From Armatimonadota bacterium (lineage in GTDB: Bacteria; Bacteroidota; Ignavibacteria; OLB7), in the NCBI GenBank assembly GCA_020850315.1, contig JADZEY010000015.1, forward strand, positions 1-40,066: DNA of 40,066 bases, written 5' to 3'. Position 1 is the stretch's first letter; each line of letters begins with the position of its first letter. The translations under genes and the position numbers were made by a program. The notes under the pieces were generated by a model that did not search any database, was not told the origin of the DNA, and saw only the letters and a program-made list of their open reading frames with translations. Positions 17,151 through 40,066 of this stretch are shown here, piece after piece.

Positions 17151-20100
17151 TTACTTCACCAACGCCAACAACACATATTTCGTTGCCGTCAACGCCCGAA
17201 CCTGCACCACATAGCTGCCAGCCGGCAACGGCGAAGCATCGAACGGAACCTCGTTAGTGCCCGGGTTTGCCGCTCCTGCAAACACCTTCAATGCTTGCCT
17301 TCCCGACGGATCGAACAGCGTCACCTGCGCATCCACCGCACGTGGCACTTGGAACCGGATTGTCCCGCTGGATTTGGTTGGATTTGGCGTGACCGCTTCC
17401 ACAAACACACTATCCTCAAACGTCGGTGCCGCTGGCGACTCACCCCGGGTGAACCAGCGCGGATGAAACACCGCTTGCTCCGGACTTAATTTCAGGAAGG
17501 AGAGTTGATTGTTCAAGCGGGTGTAGAACAGGAACGCTTGCTGCGATTGCGTAGTGAAGCATATCTGCCGATCGTCGGGGCTGAACGTTGGGCGGTCGGC
17601 ATCAAGAATCGGGTTCCCTTGGATGTTGAAATTCTGGATACTGAGCCCTTGCTCGATGTTGGTTGCAAAATTCACCAGCGTCACATCTTCCACATCCCCA
17701 ATCACATTAAATGCCAGCACATCAGGATCGGTGTTGCTGTAGGTGACGTTCCCCACACTGACATCCCCCGGCTGGGCGGGGATAAGATTGTAGATCCGCT
17801 CTGCGTCGAAGTCAATCTCATACATACTCCAGAAGGAGGTTGTCCCACCAGCAATATCCAACTGGCGGAAGGCATCAAAGGCAATTTTGGGCAGCTGCAA
17901 ATTTGGCGACCACGAGACCACATCGGGGAACTGGATGGACTCATCGGTGATGCCGGTTTGTGTGGTTTGCGGCTTCAGTTCCACCACGCTCAACTTGCTG
18001 GTAGCTACCTCAAAGAAATAGAGGTTCGGGTCTTTCTCGTAGGCCGAGACCAACGTCACAAAACTTTCATCAGGGGCAACCGATGCGTTCCAAATATCTG
18101 GGCCGCTACCGTTGGCATTGATTCGCAGATCGGGGAAGACGCTGACTTGCCCCGTGTTCACATCAACGTTGGCAAGCTGTTGCTGGGTGTTCACAAACCA
18201 TATCCGCGAGCCGTTGCGGGCTGTGCTCAGCTGGCTGCGATCCACATTGTTCCCGTCGCGGTTGACGCGTGCCACGGCGTTATCGAACATCTGCACGCTG
18301 TTGGCATCAACATCCAGCAATCCAATCGTCCCATTGTCCAGCATGAACGCAATCACCGAGTTTGTTCCTTGCGCTGGCGGGACGTTATTGTCGCCGCTGT
18401 TGTTGCCGCCGCTGGTGTTCCCGCCACCGCCGGTGCTTCCGCCATCGTCGGTACCAATGCCCACTGCGGCGAATGATTTCCGCACAGCCGAGGCCTCGGC
18501 ACCATCGCCGTGCAGATCTTTTGCGGCTTGCAGCACTGCGTTGCGGCAGTCAATAAAATTGCTGTTGCGGGTTAGGTAGTTGGTAAGTGCGCGGTAGTAG
18601 ATGGTCTCCACTTTCTCCCGCCCAATCTCCTGAATTAGCAATGCCGCCGCACGGTTGGGAATGCCGCTGTTGACGTGAACGCCACCATTATCCTGATCCA
18701 ACCCAAGCTGGCGGAACTGATTCATGTGTGCTGGCTGCGGGCTAATCACATTGTTGTTATCGGGGTTCAGCATATCGCGCAAGGCAACCCCAAACTGTGC
18801 GCGGGTGATGTCCTCGCCAATCAAGAAATCTGCCCGATCCACCATCAGCCCAAACACGTCGGCGAATGATTCGTTCAAGGCTCCGGATTGGTTCTGGTAG
18901 ATTAGGTTCGCGCTGTGTTCAATCACCCCGTGGGTCATTTCGTGCCCGGCAACATCCACCCCGCCAGCCAGCGGCGTGAACGCTTGGTTCCCATCGCCAT
19001 AGGCCATCACCCGCCCGTTCCAGAAAGCGTTATCCATCGGCTGCCCCTCTTCGGTAACGTGGATGATGGAGACGATAGACTCATCCTTGTTATCAATGGC
19101 GTTGCGGTTGTGGGTGTTCTTGTAGTAATCGTAGGCCACCTTTGCGTTGGCGTGTGCCGAAACCGAGGAGCGGTCGCCCCAAGTGTTGTTGGCCGAGGTG
19201 ACGTGCGCCAGCTGCACGCTTTGCGTAAGGTCATTGTTTCCCGCGCTGATGGTGATTGCCCCGCCAGCTGGGTTATCGGGAAGCTGGGATTTTGCTTGAT
19301 TGAAATTGGGAAGATCGAACACCATGTAGTGGATGTTATCGGTGTGTTGATACACCCGGAAGGTTTGCGCCTTCCCGTTCAGATCGGTTGCCGTGGCGTT
19401 CTTGAATCCAGCAACCGCAACCCCTTGTGCCGATTGCACCGTTGGCGCGTTGTTGGTGTGCAGCCCCCCCGCAAACCCGCTCACCCGTGGCGGCGCGGCG
19501 TTTCCCGTTGGCGGAACAATGCTGCAATGGCGCGGAATCCGGTTCAGAATTTCCCCGTTGCCAGCATCCACCAAGTAGGTGAAATGCTCAATCAAATTTG
19601 GATAGATCGCCACCTCCCACGCCAACCGCATTGTGCCATTGGCCATTGGGAACAACACCAGTTGGGCCGTTGGTGCATCGAACTTCAGGGTCACTGCGGC
19701 ATCGGCTGGCAATGGCTCCCATCGGCCTTTTGCTCTCAGGTCGGCAATGGTGGTTTCAATGGCGTTGTTGCCGGAAATGCTGGCTGTGGTCTGGGCCGAA
19801 ACGGGCGTTGGTTCGTAGGCTCCGTTGATAACGTAGGCGGCTCCATCCGGCGTTGCATGAACGTACAGGTCGCGCCCCCACACCGGAATGTTCTGCCACG
19901 TTTGTGCAAACCGGAAGTGAGTGAAACCAACCGGATCGGTGGTGATGCTTATCGGCGTTAGCTCCTGCAACGGATTGCGCAGCCCCAACACTTCCCGATA
20001 GCTCTGCAGCAGTTGCAATGCCGCACGCGAGGCCGATTGCAGCCCGCCCCCTTGCTGCTGTTTTGGATCACGCACTTGGATGTTTCCCAACGCCCCTTCC

Positions 20101-20441
20101 AGCCAACGCACTGTTCCATTTTCGGCACGCTGCACCGATAGCCGTAGCACGGTTTCGCGGGGGGCCGCAGCGGTGTCGGCATTGTTGCGGAGAAGTTGCT
20201 GGCGTGGTGTGGTTGCAACCGTGCGGCGTTCCGGCAAGCCATACGGAGTGATTGTTGGAGGGGCTTCCCCCAACGGAGATTTTTCCGGTGAACCGAACAG
20301 CGGAATCCCTTCCGGGCGGCCTTGCATGGTGCGCAAATCCACCGCTGGTTTGGATTGTTGGCGTTGCTGTGCCGCAATCGGGGCAACAACGCCAGTGAGC
20401 AGAAGAAGGCCAAGCGATGCAGAGATCAGCGAACGGTTCAT
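17151..20441 (-). CDS. Secreted M4 (thermolysin-type) metalloprotease with beta-propeller and T9SS-like sorting domain
   Basis: A 1096-residue protein from the ATG at 20441 (MNRSLISASLGLLLLTGVVA signal peptide); the reading can extend upstream to 20534 but without a signal sequence. It has an FTP/PepSY-type propeptide (about 60-290) and an M4 catalytic domain with VAGHEMTHGV (about residue 499), GALNESFADVFG (about 522) and GVHVNSGIPNRA. A Gly/Asn/Ser linker follows, then a beta-propeller-like region of about 720-1030 (FVTLVSAYEKDPNLYFFEV, RPTFSPDDRQICF). The C terminus is a type A sorting domain (TPNPTKSSGTIRFQVP...LPAGSYVVQV). It is probably exported by T9SS as a zymogen. The propeller after an M4 domain is an unusual addition. 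Confidence 0.9.
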   Translation of the reverse strand: MNRSLISASLGLLLLTGVVAPIAAQQRQQSKPAVDLRTMQGRPEGIPLFGSPEKSPLGEAPPTITPYGLPERRTVATTPRQQLLRNNADTAAAPRETVLRLSVQRAENGTVRWLEGALGNIQVRDPKQQQGGGLQSASRAALQLLQSYREVLGLRNPLQELTPISITTDPVGFTHFRFAQTWQNIPVWGRDLYVHATPDGAAYVINGAYEPTPVSAQTTASISGNNAIETTIADLRAKGRWEPLPADAAVTLKFDAPTAQLVLFPMANGTMRLAWEVAIYPNLIEHFTYLVDAGNGEILNRIPRHCSIVPPTGNAAPPRVSGFAGGLHTNNAPTVQSAQGVAVAGFKNATATDLNGKAQTFRVYQHTDNIHYMVFDLPNFNQAKSQLPDNPAGGAITISAGNNDLTQSVQLAHVTSANNTWGDRSSVSAHANAKVAYDYYKNTHNRNAIDNKDESIVSIIHVTEEGQPMDNAFWNGRVMAYGDGNQAFTPLAGGVDVAGHEMTHGVIEHSANLIYQNQSGALNESFADVFGLMVDRADFLIGEDITRAQFGVALRDMLNPDNNNVISPQPAHMNQFRQLGLDQDNGGVHVNSGIPNRAAALLIQEIGREKVETIYYRALTNYLTRNSNFIDCRNAVLQAAKDLHGDGAEASAVRKSFAAVGIGTDDGGSTGGGGNTSGGNNSGDNNVPPAQGTNSVIAFMLDNGTIGLLDVDANSVQMFDNAVARVNRDGNNVDRSQLSTARNGSRIWFVNTQQQLANVDVNTGQVSVFPDLRINANGSGPDIWNASVAPDESFVTLVSAYEKDPNLYFFEVATSKLSVVELKPQTTQTGITDESIQFPDVVSWSPNLQLPKIAFDAFRQLDIAGGTTSFWSMYEIDFDAERIYNLIPAQPGDVSVGNVTYSNTDPDVLAFNVIGDVEDVTLVNFATNIEQGLSIQNFNIQGNPILDADRPTFSPDDRQICFTTQSQQAFLFYTRLNNQLSFLKLSPEQAVFHPRWFTRGESPAAPTFEDSVFVEAVTPNPTKSSGTIRFQVPRAVDAQVTLFDPSGRQALKVFAGAANPGTNEVPFDASPLPAGSYVVQVRALTATKYVLLALVK

Positions 20442-20565
20442 GGCAGAAGTAGGAAGGAAGTTTGTGAAGCAAACCAGCACAGCAGTCGGGACGAATATGC
20501 AAAAAAGAACTGCTGGCGATTCATCAACCAACAATCTTGCTGCCGCCCGCTTTGCTACCCCCAGC

Positions 20566-25322: not shown

Positions 25323-28300
25323 TTAAATGCTTGCTGTGTATCCAACATCCACCGACTCATCCACCGTGAACCAAAGCACCGAACCACGCACGCGGGCCGT
25401 TCCGGTAAAGGAAACGGTGCTTGTGTTGGCAGCAAGCGTTGCATCCACGGCGATTGTTCCCGCAAGCAGATCAAGCATCCCAACCGGGGTGTCAAGGTTC
25501 ACATCCCAGGTCCCTTCAAACTTCAACTTGGCGGTCAGTGATTGATCTTTGTTGACGTACTTCAGTTTGGTCTTGATGGAAAGATGGAGGTCCACAATGG
25601 CGGTGGCCACAAGAAGCGAGAAGCTCTTGTTTAAGTCGTACCACAACCTCCCGTCGGCCTCAATCTTCTCCTCGGTGAACTCCAAGTTGGCCTCGGCTTT
25701 CACCTGCTTCAGCACCGCGCCCTCGATCTTCTCGCTGCGGATGTACTTCTGGCCATCGCGGTATTTGAAGTTGATCTTGCCGTTGAAGTAGAAGACCCCA
25801 CCCTCGGCATCGGGAAGGCCCACGAACATCCGCACGAATCCTTCCATCCCCGGCTTGTCGTTCCAGTACAACGTCAGTTGCCCTTCGCCGAACATATTTT
25901 CTTCCTGCTTCAGCAGCCACAGCTTGCCGTTCAGCGTGAAGTATTCGTCGGTCAGCACCATCGTCAAACGGCCAGCGAACACCTCGCCCGATGGCGCGTT
26001 CCCGATCCCCACAATCGCCTTGAACGACAGTGAGTTGGAGTTGCGTGGCGAGCCAGGCTGGTCGCCAACTGGTGGGGCGTAGTTCCAGCCAACGCCGCCG
26101 CCAAGCTCAAGCAACGCCAATCCGGTTTGCCCAAGCAGAACCCCTTTCAGCCCAAGCGACATCTCCACATACCAGTAGGTGAAGTTGCTCTTGTCGTCAA
26201 TGGCTTGCGTGCCGACGATGAATGACCCTTTGATCCCTTTATCCAGCAGCTTCTTGATGCCGATCTCGAACGCGCCACGGAACTCATTCCCGTTGTACGC
26301 CAGCTCGCCATCGAACTTCACCGCGCCATTCTCGAAGCTCAGTTTTGCTTCGTCCAACTTCACGGAAATCTCCGGGCCGGGGGCGATTGCGATTGAGCCT
26401 TTCAGCTTGTCAATGCCGATTGCGGGGATCATAAATCCGCCAGTCAACGATAGGCCGTACTCGCCCCCCATCGCCACAAATTTCACTTGATCCACCTCCA
26501 CCGTCAGTCGGTTGTTGAAGGTGATTGCCTTGTTGAAATTGAACTCCCCTTTCACCTCACCCTTGCTGTTGAACTCGAAGCCGTTGATGTCAATGTCGCC
26601 GAACTTTGTGCTGCTGATGACGGCATCCAATTTCAGCGTCCCCACCGACTCCTTTTCGTCGTAGATGATCTCACCTTTGCGCAGCGTGAAGACCGTTTGC
26701 AGCCGTGGCAGCGACACCGGGTTGTCGGTTCCGATGCTTGCTTTCCACTCGTCGCCGGTTTTGCCGATGCTGACGCGAAGTTTCCCCTCCATCGGTGCCG
26801 GAAGCGCGACTTCGCCAGCGAATGTTCCGCCGCTGAGTTCGCTCTTCTCAAAGTTGAGGCTTACCTCGTCGGCTTGGAACTCGTAGCCAGCATAGCCGAA
26901 GGTGAAGAACTTCCCTTGCAGTGCCACCTTCCCGCCAAAGCCTGCGTCGGCGGTGCCGATGTAGAAATCGGTGACGCTAAGGGTGCTTGGCGCGCCTTCG
27001 CGTCCGTTGAAGATTTGCGGCAGTTGCAGGCTGGCTTCGCGGATCAGCAGACCCTGCCAGTCGTCGGCCATCCCCTTGTCGCTTTTTGCGGGATGGAGGT
27101 CAATCGCAAACGATGTCCCTTCCTTCAGCGTGAATCCGGCAACGGCGATTTCTGGCACGTCGGAAACCTCGCCGTAGAAGTCCCCTTTGGTGTTCATCTC
27201 GGCGTAGAAACTGACAGGTTGTTCCAGCTTTGCGTGGCCCAGCTTGCCGCCAATTCCCGCGCCGCTTTCGGCACGGATCACCACCGAATCAAGCTCCACC
27301 GCAAAGCCAAGAATGTTGGCTTTCACAGCATCACCGCTTGGCTTCCACGAAACCGTTCCGGCGCTGGCGGTTGGGATTTCTTCGTCGCCCTCCTCCAGCA
27401 TCACATCGCTGATGGTTAGGGTAATATCCTTCAACTCGGTAATTAACATTCCGGCGGCGTTGATCTCGATTTTTCCGTTGCCGTTCACCGGCTCGCCGCG
27501 TGCTGGCGGGTCGTCGGGGATGATGACGAACAGGTCGCCCGGCACGCCAATCTTGAACTTTTCGATCTTGGCGGAATTGTACGTCCCCTCCACCACGAAC
27601 GGGCGCGAGACCGGTTTGTATTTCTCCTCCGGGTTTGCCTTCAGCGTGAGCGCGCCTTTTTCCGGCGGGTCCTGCACCACGGTTCTGGCAATGCCGAACA
27701 ACTCGGTTGTGGCCTCTTCGGGATCAACCTTGAAATCACCTGCTGGTTTGAAGAAGAGTTTTTCGCCAACCACCGAATCGCGGTTTTCATCCAGCAACCC
27801 GGCCACCGCAAAGACCTCGCTTTCGTAGTTGCCCTCTTCGGCTTCCGGCATTCCTTTCAGCACGTCGGGGGCCGAGCTTCCTTCCCAGACCTTCTTGGCC
27901 GCATCCCAAGCAACCGTTGGCGCGCCGCTGGTGAACCGGAGGAACTGCGGATAGAGTGGTGAGGTTGCGATGATCTCCTTTGGCGGAGGGCATTCGCCTG
28001 GGCGTTTCCACTTCGCCTCAATCTTGAATTTCGCGAAGCCTTCGCCAAAATGGAGTTCGGCTTTGGCGTAGCCGTCGCCATCGGTTTTTTTGGTGACGGT
28101 TGCGCTGGTTCCGTCAAGGCCGTAGTCCTTTGCTTCCCCTTCCAGCAGGGTGATGGTGAACTCCACATCCTCGCCTGGCCGCCCTTTGTGATCCCCTTTC
28201 ACCACCCGCGCTTTTACGGTATCAATCCGCTTGGGCCAGCCCACCAGCGAGTCTGGCGTTTCGATCAGCACGCCGGGGACAACTTCGGGGAGGGTTTCCC

Positions 28301-31300
28301 GCTCCACGGTGGGGTCGCCTGCAATCGCGCTGGCGATGTAGGTGGTTTTTACTGTCGCCTTTTTCTTGCAGTCGGGTTTGGGAACGTCAATCGTTTTCCA
28401 GAAAACACGTTGGTAATCTGCGCCGTTGATGTAGCTGCCATCGCCTCCCCAAAGGAAGGTGACAAGGTCGGCAATGCCGCCGCCGGTGCCGCCGGGGGGA
28501 AGGCACTTTTTGGGATCAACCGGAACGCAGACTTGCCTCCATGAATCGCCATCGCTTCCGCGGGCAACCATCCGAACAACATCGTCGGTTAGCACCGGTG
28601 CCGATGCCGGGATCACTGGCCACTCGGGCCACAGCGGTTCCCCTTTTTTGTAGATCAATGCAATGGTGCGCGGCTCCGGCATTTCAAGGGCTGGAGGAAT
28701 TGGCACAATCGGCCCCGGCGGAATAAATCCCACTTGCGGATTGCATCCGGCAAGCTGTTTTTTGGGCGCGATTTTTACGCTGGGATAGCTGTCGCTGAAC
28801 ACCGGAACACGGTCGCCAGGGTAGCGGAGTGTGGTGAGGATCGTCACGGTGTCGTCCTGTGCGCGGAAGCCATCCAACGGGCTGTCAACCGCCTTGATCG
28901 TCAGCTTCACTTCGTGGGTCACCACCTTGAACTCTTCATCCAACAGATACTGCCGCAGCGAGTCCTTCGCCGACTGAAGTTTCTTGCGTGCGTTCTGCAC
29001 GGTGTCCTTCATCGCTTTGGTGATGTCGTCGCGGCGGCGTAGCGCGCTGGCGATTTCTTCTTCAGCTTTTTTCATTGCTGCTTCGGCTTCTTTGGCTTGC
29101 TCCTCGGCGGCTTTCTTCTCCTCATCTTTTGATTTCACCGCGTCGTCGTCGTTCACTGCGTCGGCAATTTTTTCTTGGAATTGCTTCCGTGCGTCGTTGC
29201 ACTTCTCGATTTCCCCTTCGGCTTTTGCCAGCACCATTCGCCAGTAGTTCAGCCCTGTCAGAAGCTCCTCCATCTGCTCGTTCAACTCCACCAACGTGTC
29301 CTTTGCGTTGCGAAGCTCTTGCTGTTTTTTTACCAGTGATTCGCTGCGCCCAACCAGTGTGTCCTCGGCGGTGGCCGCCCGTTGCTGCGCCGATTGGTAG
29401 CTGCTGGCAATGCTTGCCACGCCGCTTTCCAGCGTGGTGATTGCCGTCTTCTTTGCGGCCACCGCGCCCTTTCTGCTGCTGACTTCTGCGTCGCTTGCAA
29501 TCTCGCGGCGGGCGTTGCTGCGTGCGGCCGCACGGCTTGCCGATTGCTGCGCGCGCGATAGGTCGTCCTCCAGCTCCTGAAGTTCGCGGCGGGCGTTGTT
29601 CAGTTCGGCGGTTCGCTCGGCAAGGGTGTTCTTGGCGTTTTGGCGCAAGCCTTCCTCGTAGCTGAGTTGTGCGCGGGCATCGTTCAGGTTGGTTTCCAGC
29701 GTTTCTATTTCCTTCTCCAAGCCTTCAATCCGCTGGCGTTGTTGCTCAATTTTTTGGGCAAGCGTCGCGCTGTCGGCCAGCCCTTCGCTGATTCGTTTTT
29801 CGGCGGTGTCCTTGTGTGCTTCGTTCCGCTCAAGGATGTCCAGCAGCCGGTTTTGGTAATCTTGGTACTCCTGTGTTTTGTTGTTTTTCAGCGTGGAAAG
29901 TTCGCGGTCAAGGTTGTTGGCTTCTTCCTCGGCTGTCTTCTTTTCGGCTTCGGCTTTTTTGTAGTTGGTCATCTGGCGGGCAATCCGCTCAAGCTCTTTT
30001 GTCAACTTCTTCTGCGCCCCAGCTTTGAACTCCTGCGCAATCACCAGGCCCCGCTCGGCTGCGGCAACGGAGTCCTTCAGTGCTGTGAACTTCGGCTCGT
30101 TCTTCAAGATTTCTTCCAGTGGCGGCGGGATGTAATAGACCAGCGCGCCTTCGGCAGTTTTGTTCCCTTCGGCCAACGTCTCCTTGCTTTTCTTCAAGTC
30201 TTCAAGCTGCTTTTTCAGCTTCTCCTGCTCCTTCTCCAGCGCGGCGATTTTTGCTACCAGTGGCTTCTGGGCATCCTCAATTTTCAGATCAAGAATTTCT
30301 TGGAATTTTTTCTGAAGCTCCGTCAGTTGCTTCTTCTCCGTTTCTAACTCAGCCTTGACTTGTTCCAGATGTTCTTTCAGGCGATTGAGCCGTGCTGTGT
30401 CGTTGTCAATCTGGGCGATGGTGTCGCGCAGGGCATCGGCAGCGCGAAGCATGGCATCGCGGCGTGAGTGGTGGCCGTGGCGTTCCACCAGATACGATTC
30501 CCGTTTCTGCTCAAGGTCGGTCTGGCGTGCTTTCACCAGCAGTTGGTATTCGCTTTCAAGCGTTGCCACCCGCTCGTTTTTGGTTGCGGCGGTTGCCAGC
30601 AACGCCGAACGGTCGGTTTCCAAGCCTTTGATGGTGGTGGTGTAGCTGCGGAGCGCGGCCTCGTAGTCGTCGCTTTTCCGCTCGACGGTTTTGGATGCGC
30701 TGTTGATTGAGCCTTCCTTTGCCGTAAGCTTTGTGCGTGTTGCCGAAAGATCGGCAAGAAGCGCGGGGCTAAGTTTGTAGGCTGATTTCAGTGCCGCATC
30801 AAGCGCGCCGTCATAGGCGGCGGCGGCGGCGTGGAGCGCGGGGAGGTCGCCAGTGCAGGCCGATTTCTTGTCGGCATCGGCAATGCCACTGCAAGTGAGT
30901 GCGGTTTTCAGTGCCGCCATCCGTGTGCGGAATGTGGCAAGCGCAGTGGTGCGGACTGCGGTGCTGGATGAGGCTAATCCACTTTCGGCAGCGTCGTTCA
31001 GTTTGTTCAGCGATCCCCCAAGCGTGGTTTGCGAACCAGGAAGGTGACGGCCAATGAAACTGCTGGCCGCAAGGTCCCAGGCCCGCTGTGCGTTGAAGTA
31101 GGCGCGGGCAACCGATGGGCCGTAGAGCTTCTTGTTCAGATCAGCAACCTTTTTCGTCTCGGCCTCACCGCCGCGTTTCAGCGATTCGTAGGCGGCGGTG
31201 GCTGCGGCAAGTTCGGCGGCGGCGTTGTCAACGGCGGTTTTCAGCCGCGCCGATTCGGTTTGGATGTCGCGCGTTTTGCGGGCCACGCTGCTGTCGGCAG

Positions 31301-33314
31301 CGGTGGCGGCGGTCCGGGCGGTGTTGATTTCCGTGAGCTTTGCGCGCTCTTCCGCCGTCGGCTTCCCGGCAAGGATTGCGTCCAGCGAGTCAATGGATTT
31401 TTTTGCGGCTGTGGCAATCGTGATGGAGTCGTTCCGGGCTTTCACCATTGCTTCCCGAAGCGATTTCAGTGTCCCCAGCGAGTCGTTGGTTGTTGTTAGG
31501 CTGTCGGTAGCCCGTTTCAGTTCGGCAGCAACGGAATCCAGCCGAATCTTGATCTGCTCAATCTGTTTTTCAGCATCTTTTTTCTGCGCTTCCAGCCGTG
31601 TGCGCATCGCGGCGGTGTCGGCTTTTAGTTGGTCTAACGAGTCGGCAATTTCGGCCAACCGCTTGGCAACGGCGGCAATGGAGTCGTCAGTTTTTTTCAT
31701 TCCATCCAGATCGAACGGAACGTTCAGCGAGCCTTTCCCTTCCAGCTTCCACTGGTAGCTTTCCACACGGTCGCGGACCGGCTTCCAGATTGAAGCAACC
31801 CCGCCTTCGCAATCAAGGCAGCGGAAGATTGCGTAGTCCATATCCACAGCATCGGCACGGAGCGGGACGGCGCGGGGGTAGGGGAACAAATCGGGTTGAT
31901 CCAGCATTGCCCCCAGTGAAATGCCCGGCCCCTTGTTGTTCTTTGGGGGAAGCGGGCTGCATAGTGGAGTTGTCGTCGTTGTCGGGATCGTATCAATCGT
32001 TGGAATTTCCGGCGGAAACTCAATCGTATCCAACTCGGTAACGGTGGGCGGGCGGGTGGTTCCACCATCTGTGCCGCCAAGCTCGTGTTCGAACGTGCCG
32101 CTGCACGTGCTTGCTGCCGAGTTTCCGCAGCGCACCGATGCCTCAACTTGGATAATTGCTTTCGCGCCCGCAGCCAATGTGAAGGGGAGTGTGATGATGG
32201 TGGATTGGCCGGTGGCAACAGCGGTATGGGTGGTTCCGTCGCCGTTTATCACCAGCACGCTCCATTTCACTTCAAGGACTGGCGGGCAGCCGGGGGGGCA
32301 GTTGGCGGTGACATCGGCTTTCACCTGAAGCCCGCTACCGATTGGCGTTCCGGGGGCATCGCCTGCCGAGCGTGTGGTCTCCACCCGCTCGACGCTTACC
32401 CCTTTAATCAGGCAGCTACCGGGGTTGCATTTCACCTCGGTGGTGTGGTCGGGGTTCTTCACGGTGAAGGTGAATGGCGCGGCGTAGCCGTTGGGGTCGG
32501 CCAACGTGCGGCCAGCTTCGTCCAGCGTCTGGACGCTCCAGATGTAGGGTTGATCGGGGCGCGGGCCAAGGATATCCGGCGGCCACAGCAGCGATGGAAC
32601 GCCGAATGTTTCGGCTTCCAGCACCGGGCGGTTGGCAAGGAACGCGGACATCGGTTGCTGCCCGGGCAACACCTCGAACACCCGCAGCACGTAGCGCGGC
32701 GGGGTTGGAGTCTGCGGAACAACAGGGGTCCAGGTGAAATTGATTCGGCTTGACTGCTCGGCATTCAGCGTGCTGTTGTTTGGCGGAAGCAGAAGCTGCG
32801 GCAGCTGGTAGCTGGTGACGGTGAAATTGGCGCAAGCATCGGGGGAGAGGGGTTGCTCGGTTTCGGCATCCACCACCCGCGAGCAGATGCGGTAGCTTCC
32901 CGCCGGGATTTTTCCCGATTGCACAATCGCTTGCTCCCCTTCGCCATACACCTTAATTGCCCGCACGGGGATGATGTTTTCGGCGTTGCAAACGAACGTC
33001 CCCGGGCCGTTCACCGACAGCACCGGCATATCCGGCATTTTGGTTTCGGCCTTCAGGTTCCCGTTCAGAAAAATCTGTGTTTTGATTTTGAACGTCAGGC
33101 GATTCGGCGTTGGGTTAATCACCTGAAAGGTCGCCGTCTCGCGCCGCTGCTGCCAGTCGGACAGGTAGGGCGAGGGGTTTGGCGACATGATAAGGTTCAC
33201 CTGAACGCCGCTGGTTTGGGCGTTCAGTGGTTTGGCAAACAGTAGTGGCAGTGCAATCAGCACAACCCTCGTCATCAACAGCCCGAACGTGCGGGGATGT
33301 ATCCATCGTTTCAT
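25323..33314 (-). CDS. Giant secreted coiled-coil and beta-rich protein (2663 residues)
   Basis: A signal peptide (VVLIALPLLFAKPLNAQ) is followed by an N-terminal beta-rich region (about 35-540) resembling the start of large Bacteroidota surface proteins (SPNPSPYLSDW...ATFQVINPTPNRLTFKIK, RICSRVVDAETEQPLSPDAC). Residues 535-1460 form a very long coiled coil rich in Ala, Glu, Lys, Asp and Arg (SIAAVAKRLAEIADSLDQLK, QQRQRIEGLEKEIETLE). Near 1690-1780 there is an invasin-like Ig domain (GRPGEDVEFTITLLEGEAKD). The last 760 or so residues are repetitive amphipathic beta-strands (FEFNSKGEVKGEFNFN) without a sorting domain. Middle gene of a three-gene operon: 64 bases below the barrel gene and 19 above FN3. 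No function is known. Reading frame intact throughout. Confidence 0.85.
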   Translation of the reverse strand: MKRWIHPRTFGLLMTRVVLIALPLLFAKPLNAQTSGVQVNLIMSPNPSPYLSDWQQRRETATFQVINPTPNRLTFKIKTQIFLNGNLKAETKMPDMPVLSVNGPGTFVCNAENIIPVRAIKVYGEGEQAIVQSGKIPAGSYRICSRVVDAETEQPLSPDACANFTVTSYQLPQLLLPPNNSTLNAEQSSRINFTWTPVVPQTPTPPRYVLRVFEVLPGQQPMSAFLANRPVLEAETFGVPSLLWPPDILGPRPDQPYIWSVQTLDEAGRTLADPNGYAAPFTFTVKNPDHTTEVKCNPGSCLIKGVSVERVETTRSAGDAPGTPIGSGLQVKADVTANCPPGCPPVLEVKWSVLVINGDGTTHTAVATGQSTIITLPFTLAAGAKAIIQVEASVRCGNSAASTCSGTFEHELGGTDGGTTRPPTVTELDTIEFPPEIPTIDTIPTTTTTPLCSPLPPKNNKGPGISLGAMLDQPDLFPYPRAVPLRADAVDMDYAIFRCLDCEGGVASIWKPVRDRVESYQWKLEGKGSLNVPFDLDGMKKTDDSIAAVAKRLAEIADSLDQLKADTAAMRTRLEAQKKDAEKQIEQIKIRLDSVAAELKRATDSLTTTNDSLGTLKSLREAMVKARNDSITIATAAKKSIDSLDAILAGKPTAEERAKLTEINTARTAATAADSSVARKTRDIQTESARLKTAVDNAAAELAAATAAYESLKRGGEAETKKVADLNKKLYGPSVARAYFNAQRAWDLAASSFIGRHLPGSQTTLGGSLNKLNDAAESGLASSSTAVRTTALATFRTRMAALKTALTCSGIADADKKSACTGDLPALHAAAAAYDGALDAALKSAYKLSPALLADLSATRTKLTAKEGSINSASKTVERKSDDYEAALRSYTTTIKGLETDRSALLATAATKNERVATLESEYQLLVKARQTDLEQKRESYLVERHGHHSRRDAMLRAADALRDTIAQIDNDTARLNRLKEHLEQVKAELETEKKQLTELQKKFQEILDLKIEDAQKPLVAKIAALEKEQEKLKKQLEDLKKSKETLAEGNKTAEGALVYYIPPPLEEILKNEPKFTALKDSVAAAERGLVIAQEFKAGAQKKLTKELERIARQMTNYKKAEAEKKTAEEEANNLDRELSTLKNNKTQEYQDYQNRLLDILERNEAHKDTAEKRISEGLADSATLAQKIEQQRQRIEGLEKEIETLETNLNDARAQLSYEEGLRQNAKNTLAERTAELNNARRELQELEDDLSRAQQSASRAAARSNARREIASDAEVSSRKGAVAAKKTAITTLESGVASIASSYQSAQQRAATAEDTLVGRSESLVKKQQELRNAKDTLVELNEQMEELLTGLNYWRMVLAKAEGEIEKCNDARKQFQEKIADAVNDDDAVKSKDEEKKAAEEQAKEAEAAMKKAEEEIASALRRRDDITKAMKDTVQNARKKLQSAKDSLRQYLLDEEFKVVTHEVKLTIKAVDSPLDGFRAQDDTVTILTTLRYPGDRVPVFSDSYPSVKIAPKKQLAGCNPQVGFIPPGPIVPIPPALEMPEPRTIALIYKKGEPLWPEWPVIPASAPVLTDDVVRMVARGSDGDSWRQVCVPVDPKKCLPPGGTGGGIADLVTFLWGGDGSYINGADYQRVFWKTIDVPKPDCKKKATVKTTYIASAIAGDPTVERETLPEVVPGVLIETPDSLVGWPKRIDTVKARVVKGDHKGRPGEDVEFTITLLEGEAKDYGLDGTSATVTKKTDGDGYAKAELHFGEGFAKFKIEAKWKRPGECPPPKEIIATSPLYPQFLRFTSGAPTVAWDAAKKVWEGSSAPDVLKGMPEAEEGNYESEVFAVAGLLDENRDSVVGEKLFFKPAGDFKVDPEEATTELFGIARTVVQDPPEKGALTLKANPEEKYKPVSRPFVVEGTYNSAKIEKFKIGVPGDLFVIIPDDPPARGEPVNGNGKIEINAAGMLITELKDITLTISDVMLEEGDEEIPTASAGTVSWKPSGDAVKANILGFAVELDSVVIRAESGAGIGGKLGHAKLEQPVSFYAEMNTKGDFYGEVSDVPEIAVAGFTLKEGTSFAIDLHPAKSDKGMADDWQGLLIREASLQLPQIFNGREGAPSTLSVTDFYIGTADAGFGGKVALQGKFFTFGYAGYEFQADEVSLNFEKSELSGGTFAGEVALPAPMEGKLRVSIGKTGDEWKASIGTDNPVSLPRLQTVFTLRKGEIIYDEKESVGTLKLDAVISSTKFGDIDINGFEFNSKGEVKGEFNFNKAITFNNRLTVEVDQVKFVAMGGEYGLSLTGGFMIPAIGIDKLKGSIAIAPGPEISVKLDEAKLSFENGAVKFDGELAYNGNEFRGAFEIGIKKLLDKGIKGSFIVGTQAIDDKSNFTYWYVEMSLGLKGVLLGQTGLALLELGGGVGWNYAPPVGDQPGSPRNSNSLSFKAIVGIGNAPSGEVFAGRLTMVLTDEYFTLNGKLWLLKQEENMFGEGQLTLYWNDKPGMEGFVRMFVGLPDAEGGVFYFNGKINFKYRDGQKYIRSEKIEGAVLKQVKAEANLEFTEEKIEADGRLWYDLNKSFSLLVATAIVDLHLSIKTKLKYVNKDQSLTAKLKFEGTWDVNLDTPVGMLDLLAGTIAVDATLAANTSTVSFTGTARVRGSVLWFTVDESVDVGYTASI

Positions 33315-36032: not shown

Positions 36033-36055
36033 CAGTTGGTATAGCTATTTCTATA

Positions 36056-36100
36056 ATCACTTAGCCGCAGGACAATATCCTGTGGCTAAGTGATTTTTTT
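36056..36100 (+). terminator. Rho-independent terminator of the zinc-ribbon gene
   Basis: ATCACTTAGCCGCAGGA and TCCTGTGGCTAAGTGAT form a 17-bp stem with one G-T pair (36056-36072 and 36078-36094), followed by seven T residues. It lies 23 bases past the stop at 36032. Confidence 0.92.
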
Positions 36101-36660
36101 ATAAAAGCATTTGAACATTTTGATAAATAGTGTTGCCGAGAAAGACCCTTCCAAATGCTGTGAAACCAAGTAAGTATAAGGTTTCCGAGGAGTGTCGTGT
36201 AATTATTCTGCTATTTATCCACATAGAAAAAAAATATGATAGAGAATTTTGTGTGCGGCATGAATAATATATGGTCGTAACAACGTTACTCCAGTAATGC
36301 TGAATCAATTTTGCAGGGAATTTGAATCAAAACGAGTGAAAGATTCATTCTTAAATGCGGAGTAACGCAATCGCGCTGCTGTACATTTACTGTTGCCTGT
36401 ATTGGGTACTCATTCTTTTGTCAGCAGAGCAATTGAGTGCGGATCAAAAAGCGGGATAGAGAATAGTCGTAGCGGCGGTAAGCGATGTATGAAGCGTTCC
36501 ACATGGGGACGCTTTCTTCATTTAATGAAGCATTGCAGACCAATTACACGCTGCGATTGCTTGCTGCCAAAGCTCATTCTCTTCCTTCAAAACCTCTATC
36601 AGGTTTCCTTCCAACATGCCTCATCTTCCATCTGTCTCATACAGAAGCAGGAACAATCTC
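36101..36660. other. AT-rich leader and intergenic region before the fibre gene
   Basis: This 560-base stretch is clearly more AT-rich than its neighbours, especially at 36101-36360. Two short frames (36099-36308 minus and 36393-36695 plus) have no signal peptide, ribosome site or family features. It presumably holds the promoter and a long leader for the repetitive gene at 36661. No tRNA-like or riboswitch structure was recognised. Confidence 0.5.
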
Positions 36661-39600
36661 ATGATTCCTTTGCGACACGTTTCTCCATCTTGTAGCCGCT
36701 GGATTGCTGTTGTAGCAATACTTGCTGCGCTGTTGCCATCTGCCACACAAGGGCAGGTTGTGTACGATCCCCACCCACGTGATTTTGCCACTCATCGCCT
36801 TGTTCTGGATGATGGCACCAACAACGGTTTCTGGGGTATCCTGCGTCTGACCGGGACGCTTACCAGTGACATCTACATTGATTTCCCTGCCGATGCCACC
36901 GGGCCTGTGATCCGTGGCAACTCAACTGGTGGGCAATCAATTACTGGCGGGCTAACCGTTGACGACTTAGCCCTAAGCACGCCGCTTGCGGCTATCTACG
37001 GCGGGACAGGCTTCAGTGCTTATGCGATTGGGGATATTCTGTACGCCAATACTCCTACCACGTTAGCGCGGCGGGCAATCGGCACCACAGGACAGATACT
37101 TGTGGTGGAAGGGGGCGTGCCGCAATGGTCCAACAGTAGCGTCTTTTCTTCTACTGGCGGGGCTACGCCTGTCACTGGCATTAATAGCGGAGACATCACC
37201 GCTGGCTTGCCGGAGGCAGTTACGAACATTGGCTACAACGATGCTGGCGGAGCAAATGGCCCCAGCACAACCAACATTGCTGGCAACACCAACATTGGAA
37301 GTGCCACCGGCGACAACGGTGGACCCACAACCACCACAGTCAACGGCAACGCCAACTTTACTGGCACAACAACATTTGCCGTTGCCCCAACGATTCCGTT
37401 GGCAACCGATAACATCTGGCGTGGCGTTGGCGGTGTGCAGACGGCATACGCGCCGGGCGCAGCCGGAACGGTGCTGACGGTGGTTGGCACAACGCCAACA
37501 TGGTCCAGCAGCATCGGCAACTCATCGGCACCGGAGAATGTGGTTGGTGGGCCGCTGAACCTGAACAGCACAGTAGCGGGATCGCCTTCGACAACGAACA
37601 TCAATGCCAGCCCAGCAACGGGTGGGACAACGAACATCGGGAACGGGACTTCGACAACGAATGTGGCAGGGACGACGAACCTGACAGGCCCGGCAACGCT
37701 GAGCGGCGCAACAACAACGATCAGCAGCCCAACAACGAACATCAACACTGCGCCGAACGCAGGTGGGACAACGACGATTGGGAACCCGACCTCGACAACG
37801 CAGCTGAATGGGACGGTGAACTTCACCAACCCGCCATCAATCCCGCTGGCGCAAAATGCCGTGTGGGTTGGGAATAGCTCCAACGTGCAGCAAGCGTACA
37901 ACTCCACAAATGTGAATGGTGCGGTGCTGGCCCAAAACGCCAGCGGCACGCCGACGTGGACAACCAGCACGGTGTTGGCAGCAACAACAGGAAGTGCCCC
38001 GGTGACGAACATCAACAATGGTGATGTGAACAACGGATCGGGAACGGAGTCGGTGACGAACATTGGCTACAACGACCCGGATGGAGGTGCTGGGGCAAAC
38101 GCTGCTTCAACCACGAACATTAACGGGAACACGGTGCTTGGCTCGAACACCGGAAGCGGTGGCGGCCCAACCACAACCACGGTTCTTGGAACGACGAATC
38201 TTCAGGGCGCGACAACGAACATCAACACCGCGCCGAACGCAGGTGGGACAACGACGATCGGGAACCCGACCTCGACCACACAGCTGAACGGGACAGTGAA
38301 CTTCACCAATCCGCCATCAATCCCGCTGGCGCAAAATGCCGTGTGGGTTGGGAATAGCTCCAACGTGCAGCAAGCGTACAACTCCACAAATGTGAGTGGT
38401 GCAGTGCTGGCCCAAAACGCCAGCGGCACGCCGACGTGGAGCACAACGAACAACTTCACGACAACAGCTCCGGCTGGTGGCGGCGCGGTGACGAACATCA
38501 ACACGGGTGATGTGAACAGCGGGAACAACAGCGAGGCAACAACGACGATCGGCTACAACGATCCCGACGGCGCGGTGGCAACAAACGCGGCCAGCCAAAC
38601 AACAGTGTTGGGGAACATCAACCTGAACAACACAAGCCCGGGAAGCACCTCGCCACAAACGACGACGATCGGGTACAACGATCCTGACGGAAGCGGTGCG
38701 AACGTGCCATCGCAGACGACGATACTTGGGAACACGAACATCAACGCAACGAATCCGAACAGCCCAACGGCGCAGGCCACAACGATCGGGTACAACGATC
38801 CGGATGGCGGAGGGCCGAACGCCGCATCAACAACGACGGTGCTTGGAACGACGAACCTTCAGGGGCCAACAACGAACATCAACACCGCGCCGAACGCAGG
38901 TGGGACAACGACGATCGGGAACCCGACATCAACCACACAGCTGAACGGGACGGTGAACTTCGCGAACGCGCCAGTGATTCCGCTGGCAACGGATAATGTT
39001 TGGGTTGGCGTTGGCGGTGTCCAGACGGCATATCCGCCGGGCGTGGCTGGCTCTGTTCTTTCCATTGTTGGAACAACGCCAACATGGAGCAGTGCTAACG
39101 TGCTGAACGCAACAGCGGGGCTTGCTCCAATCACCAACATCAACGCTCAGGATAACAACGTTGGCGGGGGGACCGAAGCGGTGACGAACATCGGTTACGA
39201 CGATCTATCATCTGGTGGATCCGATAATCCTTCCCAGACAAACATTCGTGGCAACACCAATCTGGGATCCAACAACGGCAACAACGGTGGCGCAACCACA
39301 ACCAGCGTTGTGGGAAACACCAATATCAACGCCAGCAACCCAAACAGCCCAACAACGCAGACCACGACAGTTGGCTACAACGATCCCGACGGAGCCGGAG
39401 CAAACGTTGCTTCCACAACCAATATCTTGGGAACAACCAACCTGACTGGCTCAACCAACAACATCGGCACAACGGACAATACTGCGGGGGGAGGACCGGA
39501 AAGCCAGGTCACAATCGGCTATAACGATCCCGACGGTGGTGGACCGAACGGCCCATCAAACACCACGATTAATGGCAACGTGACGTTCGCGAATGCGCCG

Positions 39601-40066
39601 GCGATTCCGTTGGCAACGGATAATATCTGGCGTGGTGTTGGTGGCGTGCAGACGGCATACGCGCCAGGGGCAGCCGGAACAGTGCTGACGGTGGTTGGCA
39701 CAACGCCGACATGGTCCAGCAGCATCGGCAACTCATCGGCACCGGAGAATGTGGTTGGTGGGCCGCTGAACCTGAACAGCACAGCAGCGGGATCGCCTTC
39801 GACAACGAACATCAATGCCAACCCAGCAACGGGTGGTACAACGAACATCGGGAACGGGACCTCGACAACGAATGTGGCAGGGACGACGAACCTGACAGGC
39901 CCGGCAACGCTGAGCGGTGCAACAACAACGATCAGCAGCCCAACAACGAACATCAACACGGCACCGAACGCAGGTGGGACAACGACGATCGGGAACCCGA
40001 CCTCGACCACACAGCTGAACGGAACGGTGAACTTTGCGAACGCGCCAACGATTCCGCTGGCAACGG
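36661..40066 (+). CDS. Giant repetitive Thr/Asn/Gly-rich secreted fibre-like protein (partial, open at right edge)
   Basis: An ATG at 36661 opens a frame with no stop for over 1130 codons to the window end. A signal peptide (CSRWIAVVAILAALLPSATQ) is followed by a short N-terminal domain, then a phage-tail-fibre-like phrase at about 112-160 (YGGTGFSAYAIGDILYANTP, GTTGQILVVEGGVPQWS). The rest consists of recurring modules: LATDNIWRGVGGVQTAYAPG followed by GTVLTVVGTTPTW; LAQNAVWVGNSSNVQQAY followed by GAVLAQNASGTPTW; TTTIGNPTSTTQLNGTVNF; and IGYNDPDG about seven times. It is likely a trimeric or beta-helical surface fibre or adhesin. The C terminus is outside the window. The opposite-strand frames here are shadows of its repeats. 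Confidence 0.82.
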   Translation, partial: MIPLRHVSPSCSRWIAVVAILAALLPSATQGQVVYDPHPRDFATHRLVLDDGTNNGFWGILRLTGTLTSDIYIDFPADATGPVIRGNSTGGQSITGGLTVDDLALSTPLAAIYGGTGFSAYAIGDILYANTPTTLARRAIGTTGQILVVEGGVPQWSNSSVFSSTGGATPVTGINSGDITAGLPEAVTNIGYNDAGGANGPSTTNIAGNTNIGSATGDNGGPTTTTVNGNANFTGTTTFAVAPTIPLATDNIWRGVGGVQTAYAPGAAGTVLTVVGTTPTWSSSIGNSSAPENVVGGPLNLNSTVAGSPSTTNINASPATGGTTNIGNGTSTTNVAGTTNLTGPATLSGATTTISSPTTNINTAPNAGGTTTIGNPTSTTQLNGTVNFTNPPSIPLAQNAVWVGNSSNVQQAYNSTNVNGAVLAQNASGTPTWTTSTVLAATTGSAPVTNINNGDVNNGSGTESVTNIGYNDPDGGAGANAASTTNINGNTVLGSNTGSGGGPTTTTVLGTTNLQGATTNINTAPNAGGTTTIGNPTSTTQLNGTVNFTNPPSIPLAQNAVWVGNSSNVQQAYNSTNVSGAVLAQNASGTPTWSTTNNFTTTAPAGGGAVTNINTGDVNSGNNSEATTTIGYNDPDGAVATNAASQTTVLGNINLNNTSPGSTSPQTTTIGYNDPDGSGANVPSQTTILGNTNINATNPNSPTAQATTIGYNDPDGGGPNAASTTTVLGTTNLQGPTTNINTAPNAGGTTTIGNPTSTTQLNGTVNFANAPVIPLATDNVWVGVGGVQTAYPPGVAGSVLSIVGTTPTWSSANVLNATAGLAPITNINAQDNNVGGGTEAVTNIGYDDLSSGGSDNPSQTNIRGNTNLGSNNGNNGGATTTSVVGNTNINASNPNSPTTQTTTVGYNDPDGAGANVASTTNILGTTNLTGSTNNIGTTDNTAGGGPESQVTIGYNDPDGGGPNGPSNTTINGNVTFANAPAIPLATDNIWRGVGGVQTAYAPGAAGTVLTVVGTTPTWSSSIGNSSAPENVVGGPLNLNSTAAGSPSTTNINANPATGGTTNIGNGTSTTNVAGTTNLTGPATLSGATTTISSPTTNINTAPNAGGTTTIGNPTSTTQLNGTVNFANAPTIPLAT
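37391..37822 (+). repeat. Long in-frame direct repeat, copy A of the fibre gene
   Basis: This stretch of about 430 bases is nearly identical to 39602-40033, at an offset of 2211 bases (737 codons). A few third-position changes separate the copies, for example GGCAACCGATAAC against GGCAACGGATAAT. The near-identity at the DNA level points to recent duplication or gene conversion within the gene. Confidence 0.85.
37732..37960 (+). repeat. Direct repeat, second family, copy 1
   Basis: About 229 bases encoding TTNINTAPNAGGTTTIG through GTPTW recur at 38212-38440 with an offset of 480 bases (160 codons) and only scattered differences. A shorter related copy is at 38868-38962. Confidence 0.85.
38212..38440 (+). 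repeat. Direct repeat, second family, copy 2
   Basis: The second copy of the 229-base unit. Upstream of it the stretch around 38175-38310 also matches 38820-38960, so repeat units overlap and nest. Confidence 0.85.
38868..38962 (+). repeat. Direct repeat, second family, short third copy
   Basis: Shares the ACAACGAACATCAACACCGC...CTGAACGGGACGGTGAACTT core with the copies at 37732 and 38212, then continues into the LATDN module instead of the LAQNA module. This is a junction where modules have been recombined. Confidence 0.8.
39602..40033 (+). repeat. Long in-frame direct repeat, copy B of the fibre gene
   Basis: The second copy of the 430-base repeat first seen at 37391. Similarity decays past about 40033, where GAACTTTGCGAACGCGCC replaces GAACTTCACCAACCCGCC. 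Confidence 0.85.

Follow-up and report, generated by a model that had tools for sequence, protein, structure and literature searches.

The gene for BadA of Bartonella henselae is a long fibre gene whose repeats are proposed to be reshuffled by recombination (PMC8859334). Periscope Proteins carry highly identical DNA repeats through which homologous recombination has been proposed to change the length of a surface rod (PMC8201768, PMC9704523), a class that explicitly excludes multimeric stalks (PMC9704523), and phage tail-fibre and receptor-binding proteins show domain mosaicism (PMC10684548). The 40,066-nt stretch of DNA analysed here (the window) is an entire contig, C15, of a 138-contig, 4.24-Mb genome (G000), and a giant fibre gene that can be set beside these three systems runs off its right end. 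We consider it likely that this gene encodes a secreted, tail-fibre-like modular protein of at least 2258 amino acids that belongs to a mosaic family and is diversified by intragenic recombination; an adhesive role at the surface is putative.

By analogy, BadA is the nearest described behaviour. With the BadA-like mosaic trimeric autotransporter adhesins the gene has in common a long, secreted, modular design, DNA repeats that appear to recombine, ends that are kept and a family of paralogues, as well as YadA-head repeats, which here lie in neighbours of the fibre gene. However, YadA_anchor (PF03895), the domain that defines that family, had zero matches in the whole genome (an E. coli control was positive), there are no coiled-coil neck or stalk domains, and the modules are instead tail-fibre-type linkers and TTTIGNPTST repeats for which Pfam has no models. 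The likeness to Periscope Proteins lies in the highly identical DNA repeats, the recombination proposed for them and the change of length, but Periscope arrays are uniform, tandem and monomeric, whereas the units of the fibre are interspersed and mosaic. Periscope repeats are tandem units of more than 50 amino acids with at least 80% identity, whereas the adjacent full units here (37834-38313 and 38314-38970) are 76% identical, with 77 codons within them 97% identical; Periscope repeat number varies among close strains, and the variation of the fibre gene was seen between two species. Phage tail fibres resemble it in a GGTGxxxYxxGDLLYA...GQVLxVxGGxPxW motif, in shuffled modules and in a Peptidase_S74 chaperone domain on one paralogue (the C50 protein, below). 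The fibre gene differs from them in being cellular, in having a signal peptide, in lying outside any prophage, in having other modules that were not found in phage collections and in the absence of Peptidase_S74 from its protein, a domain present in this genome only on C114 and C50. Peptidase_S74 acts as the chaperone in endosialidase and in tail fibres; many tail fibres, though not all, carry it as a C-terminal domain.

The features of the gene within the window are listed in Table 1. Its reading frame is open without a stop from 36616 to 40065 on the forward strand, and the contig end at 40066 cuts it. The ATG at 36661, an in-frame alternative to the one at 36616, leaves a clean signal peptide, and by this sequence feature the fibre protein is a secreted one. 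Upstream of the gene lies a strong terminator-like hairpin (36055-36095), made of an inverted repeat of 18 pairs and the T run behind it.

Table 1. Features of the modular fibre gene in the window (positions are those of the window).
Feature	Position	Strand	Remarks
5' part of modular fibre gene	36616..40066	+	1150 codons; rest of the gene on the minus strand of contig C98, from L010:13564 to 10136
N-terminal signal peptide MIPLRHVSPSCSRWIAVVAILAALLPSATQGQ	36661..36756	+	cleavage site by eye; hydrophobic-run score 12/12
Tail-fibre-type motif TPLAAIYGGTG..AIGDILYAN...LARRAIGTTGQILVVEGGVPQW	36964..37140	+	viral motif searches, PHROGs
Offset-2211 family, near-identical repeat copy 1	37372..37851	+	copy 2 at 39583-40062
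Module A149, first copy (LATDN...ENVVGGPLNLNS...TTQLNGTVNF)	37387..37833	+	
Offset-480 family, near-identical repeat copy 1	37729..37959	+	copy 2 at 38209-38439
Module B160 (LAQNA type), first copy	37834..38313	+	
Module B219 (LAQNA type), second copy, with extra IGYNDPDG units	38314..38970	+	
Candidate shared recombination block TTNINTAPNAGGTTTIGNPTSTTQLNGTVNF	38866..38970	+	more copies near 37729, 38209 and 39940; LAQNA or LATDN modules come next
Module A209 (LATDN type) with IGYND units	38971..39597	+	
Module A149, second copy	39598..40066	+	94.0% nt identity to first copy over 149 codons
Contig-end sequence, exact match to start of contig C98 (minus strand)	39962..40066	+	105 bp

Extending the contig, as the first-pass annotation had proposed, led to the C terminus. 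Within 3 mismatches the contig-end sequence has just two matching sites in the genome, the reading frames agree across the overlap, and the joined gene has 2258 codons with its stop at L010:10136 on contig C98. This join is independently supported, because in an unbroken contig of the sister species (L017) module A149' is followed directly by module A242, which is the order that joining C15 to C98 creates. The value of 2258 amino acids is a minimum: contig ends elsewhere in this assembly share about 125 bp, and further copies may hide at the junction or in the middle of the array. The protein ends in a 93-aa non-repeated domain (last residues FINYIVHQ) which, like the fibre modules, has no Pfam model, and which had no match in the phage collection. 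The C98 part of the protein has no Pfam match, and so no YadA_anchor; YadA-head type repeats are absent from the fibre protein; and so is a T9SS sorting domain (PF18962 type), in a 4.2-Mb genome that has 148 T9SS C-terminal sorting domain matches at E ≤0.001. Two other families of the class have short proteins that begin with a hydrophobic leader and end in this 93-aa domain, at 37-40% identity; those on L049 and L050 are 415 and 373 aa long, and after one of them comes another short secreted fibre-like protein. Scans of the fibre protein against Pfam, NCBIfam and PHROGs gave no useful match, a PDB sequence search returned a chance match alone (E 0.28), and an Rfam scan of the 40,066-nt stretch had no match. 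One DNA match, on C93, was discarded; it sits in an unrelated nucleotidyltransferase-like ORF.

The joined protein consists of a signal peptide, an N-terminal head that carries the tail-fibre linker motif, about 11 modules (LATDN or LAQNA linkers, IGYNDPDG units and TTTIGNPTSTTQLNG beta-repeat-like blocks) and the 93-aa C-terminal domain. Where about seven IGYNDPDG-type units had been counted at first reading, a search for [IV]GY[ND]D gives 8 in the part inside the window (5 IGYNDPDG, 1 VGYNDPDG and 2 degenerate ones) and 10 more in the C98 continuation. The LATDN and LAQNA modules, which a profile comparison relates with a probability of 98%, are clearly related, two versions of one element. 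An AlphaFold model of a module was of moderate confidence (pLDDT 69, pTM 0.40) and had no PDB match; the C-terminal part reached pLDDT 41 from 5 sequences.

The two in-frame, near-identical repeat families reported in the first-pass annotation are both real features of the DNA. The copies at offset 480 are 95.2% identical in nucleotides and 97.4% in amino acids, and the 480-bp copies at offset 2211 are 92.3% identical in nucleotides. The null for DNA identity was obtained by holding both proteins fixed and redrawing the codons from the gene's own usage in 500 draws, which gave a mean of 77% and a maximum of 83.5% for the offset-480 repeat, and a mean of 74.5% and a maximum of 79.3% for 37381-37854 of the offset-2211 repeat. 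Since the observed identities lie far above these values, protein conservation and low complexity do not explain the likeness. Every exact repeat that reaches 25 bp keeps the frame: 20 of 20 in the joined gene and 51 of 51 in the ortholog of the sister species. The switch between LATDN and LAQNA that had been placed near 38868-38962 was likewise confirmed: after block 38866-38970 comes LATDN (38971), while the copies that start at 37729 and 38209 and are 85-86% identical to the block lead into LAQNA at 37834 and 38314.

The earlier suggestion that the N-terminal GDILYA phrase resembles a phage tail-fibre motif proved well founded. The GDILYA...VPQW motif is encoded in more than 580 viral contigs, with identity up to 60%, in a search that used a motif-only alignment (a mixed motif alignment was too diverse for scanning). 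Seven of the motif-bearing viral proteins were checked; 4 match PHROGs tail-fibre or tail-spike families, a fifth matches a tail assembly family and Mtd_N (the major-tropism-determinant N-terminal domain), and the other two had no match. Judged by these matches, the phrase is a genuine tail-fibre motif. Profile comparison of LATDN with GDILYA covers 22 columns at a probability of 76%, so that descent of the LATDN and LAQNA linkers from this motif is suggestive at best; a relationship of LAQNA itself to GDILYA (probability 5%) was not convincing and was set aside.

Downstream of the fibre gene, on C98, are genes for two secreted proteins, 702 and 928 aa long, that contain YadA-head repeats, and the C110 gene has an N-terminal part in common with the fibre gene (49%), followed by YadA-head repeats. 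The secreted C50 protein (1934 aa; L012:2427-8231, minus strand) has an LAQNA-type module and a GNTGTTPGVGVGQNFLGATDDRDVVFAT module in common with the fibre gene, dozens of xxGGGxxNxASGxxSxI repeats, and its Peptidase_S74 domain near the C-terminus. Matches to the neighbour fibre were seen at many loci in the two genomes, 30 and 28 places.

Among 60 relatives searched, the full gene is confined to this genus, which we tentatively place in the Kapabacteria lineage, and carried by two genomes, both of them contig-broken within the gene. The second is that of the sister species Chlorobiota MAG-306 (genome G001), whose 2353-aa ortholog lies on two overlapping contigs (C29 and C37). Between the two A149 copies identity is 94% in the window species and 84% in the sister, and across species it is 82-85%, while the single-copy orthologous ends of the gene are 83-90% identical between species. 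As the sister copies are about as diverged from each other as copies are between species, homogenisation of A149 would have taken place mainly on the window-species side. The informative sites of A149 fall 23 to same-species grouping, 2 to same-position grouping and 1 to cross grouping (bootstrap 100), and two shorter repeat blocks are also more alike within than between species, being the best of 210 and of 15 labelings (1/210 and 1/15). From this greater likeness within each species we infer that homogenisation or re-duplication of the repeats took place after the species split. In each species one and the same module comes after the second A149 copy, which suggests that this copy has kept an ancestral position and that its sequence was homogenised; gene conversion is thereby favoured over an independent duplication.

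A stretch of 121 residues near the C-terminus is missing from the sister protein; this in-frame, module-exact indel has its breakpoint between two repeats and lies inside contigs of both species. At the breakpoint the sister's left flank resembles the left copy of the window species (0.72) more than the right (0.58), and its right flank resembles the right copy (0.86) more than the left (0.55). Since the two copies that flank the indel in the window species are only 55-58% alike, the indel is better explained by loss from the sister, through crossing-over between repeats, than by a duplication that arose recently in the window species. Module order in the middle of the array differs between the species, while each of the first two modules, and each of the last ones ahead of the indel, has a single counterpart in the other species. 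The expectation that recombination varies a surface fibre is thus borne out in its first part, by homogenisation after the split, by module shuffling and by the in-frame indel of a module that distinguishes the two sister species; the surface location is a prediction. We propose that homologous recombination between the repeats, by unequal crossing-over and gene conversion and with an assumed dependence on RecA, would add, delete and reshuffle modules while the ends stay fixed. The protein would be an outer-surface, probably trimeric beta-fibre for adhesion, and recombination would thereby vary its length and its surface chemistry.

Such variation could instead be a by-product, with no adaptive role, of neutral recombination among the repeats of a secreted repetitive scaffold. 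We judge this unlikely, although the protein has the low-complexity composition of such a scaffold (Thr 18%, Gly 15%, Asn 13%), purifying selection alone would keep the frame, and homogenised repeats are a generic outcome of recombination. Orthologous modules have 94-96% amino acid identity between the species while their same-codon identity is 61-70%, so the modules themselves are constrained, which weighs against a neutral scaffold but says nothing on whether the variation is selected. It is very improbable, in our view, that short-read assembly produced the repeats or their number. Both genomes are many-contig drafts broken inside the fibre gene, and junctions may collapse extra copies; however, the longest exact repeat in the gene (85 bp in the window species, 83 bp in the sister) is shorter than the contig-end overlaps of 105-125 bp, so copies within contigs are resolvable, the copies carry distinct substitutions, and an independent assembly of another species has the same modules and junction order. 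The concern over artefacts raised in the first-pass annotation is therefore largely answered for repeats within contigs, and the middle of the array could hide copies. Positions 1-125 of the window match exactly the ends of about 8 other contigs, a multicopy element or repeat where the assembly breaks.

Capture of a prophage tail-fibre gene in the contig is hardly credible. The spread of the GDILYA...P.W motif through viral contigs, in proteins that match tail-fibre PHROGs, speaks for it, but the fibre gene has a signal peptide (hydrophobic-run score 12/12), whereas 36 of 38 viral ORFs with the motif score below 10 and 2 of 38 have a hydrophobic leader. The whole fibre protein, moreover, had no match in the phage collection and none confirmed in IMG/VR, its neighbours in the window are bacterial (OmpA, TPR, an M4 peptidase with Por_Secre_tail, AA_kinase), and the fibre gene is conserved in the sister species together with the flanking secreted coiled-coil and fibre genes. 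A secreted modular protein of the cell diversified by intragenic recombination is the reading we prefer. A wider version of it seems to us quite improbable, namely a cell-surface fibre system of a T9SS bacterium whose module-sharing paralogues (the fibre gene and its neighbours on C98 as well as C110, C50 and others) act as a reservoir and swap tail-fibre-derived modules through ectopic recombination. Fibre length and specificity would then vary at the population level, and the 93-aa C-terminal domain would mark an undescribed route of export and anchoring.

The two sister genomes of this uncultured Chlorobiota lineage let concerted evolution and a module-exact indel be read directly in a giant fibre gene, and they show a secreted protein family of the cell that is built in part from reused tail-fibre linker modules. 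Draft metagenome assemblies break or shorten genes of this type, which calls for caution in reading them.

Adjoining the fibre gene, the window encodes a 2663-aa coiled-coil-like protein (25323-33314, minus strand) with weak SMC/Rad50-like coiled-coil matches in NCBIfam, and at the equivalent position (L016:1-4350) the sister encodes a similar coiled-coil protein, which has a signal peptide. The M4 peptidase of the window (17151-20534, minus strand) is a thermolysin-type metallopeptidase with a propeptide and a Por_Secre_tail T9SS sorting domain. Another genome of the class (G040) has four consecutive secreted tail-fibre-like genes (L043:829-12556); long collagen-like GPxG repeats occur in one of them, and another has GGxxSxTGGxGG repeats by the dozen.
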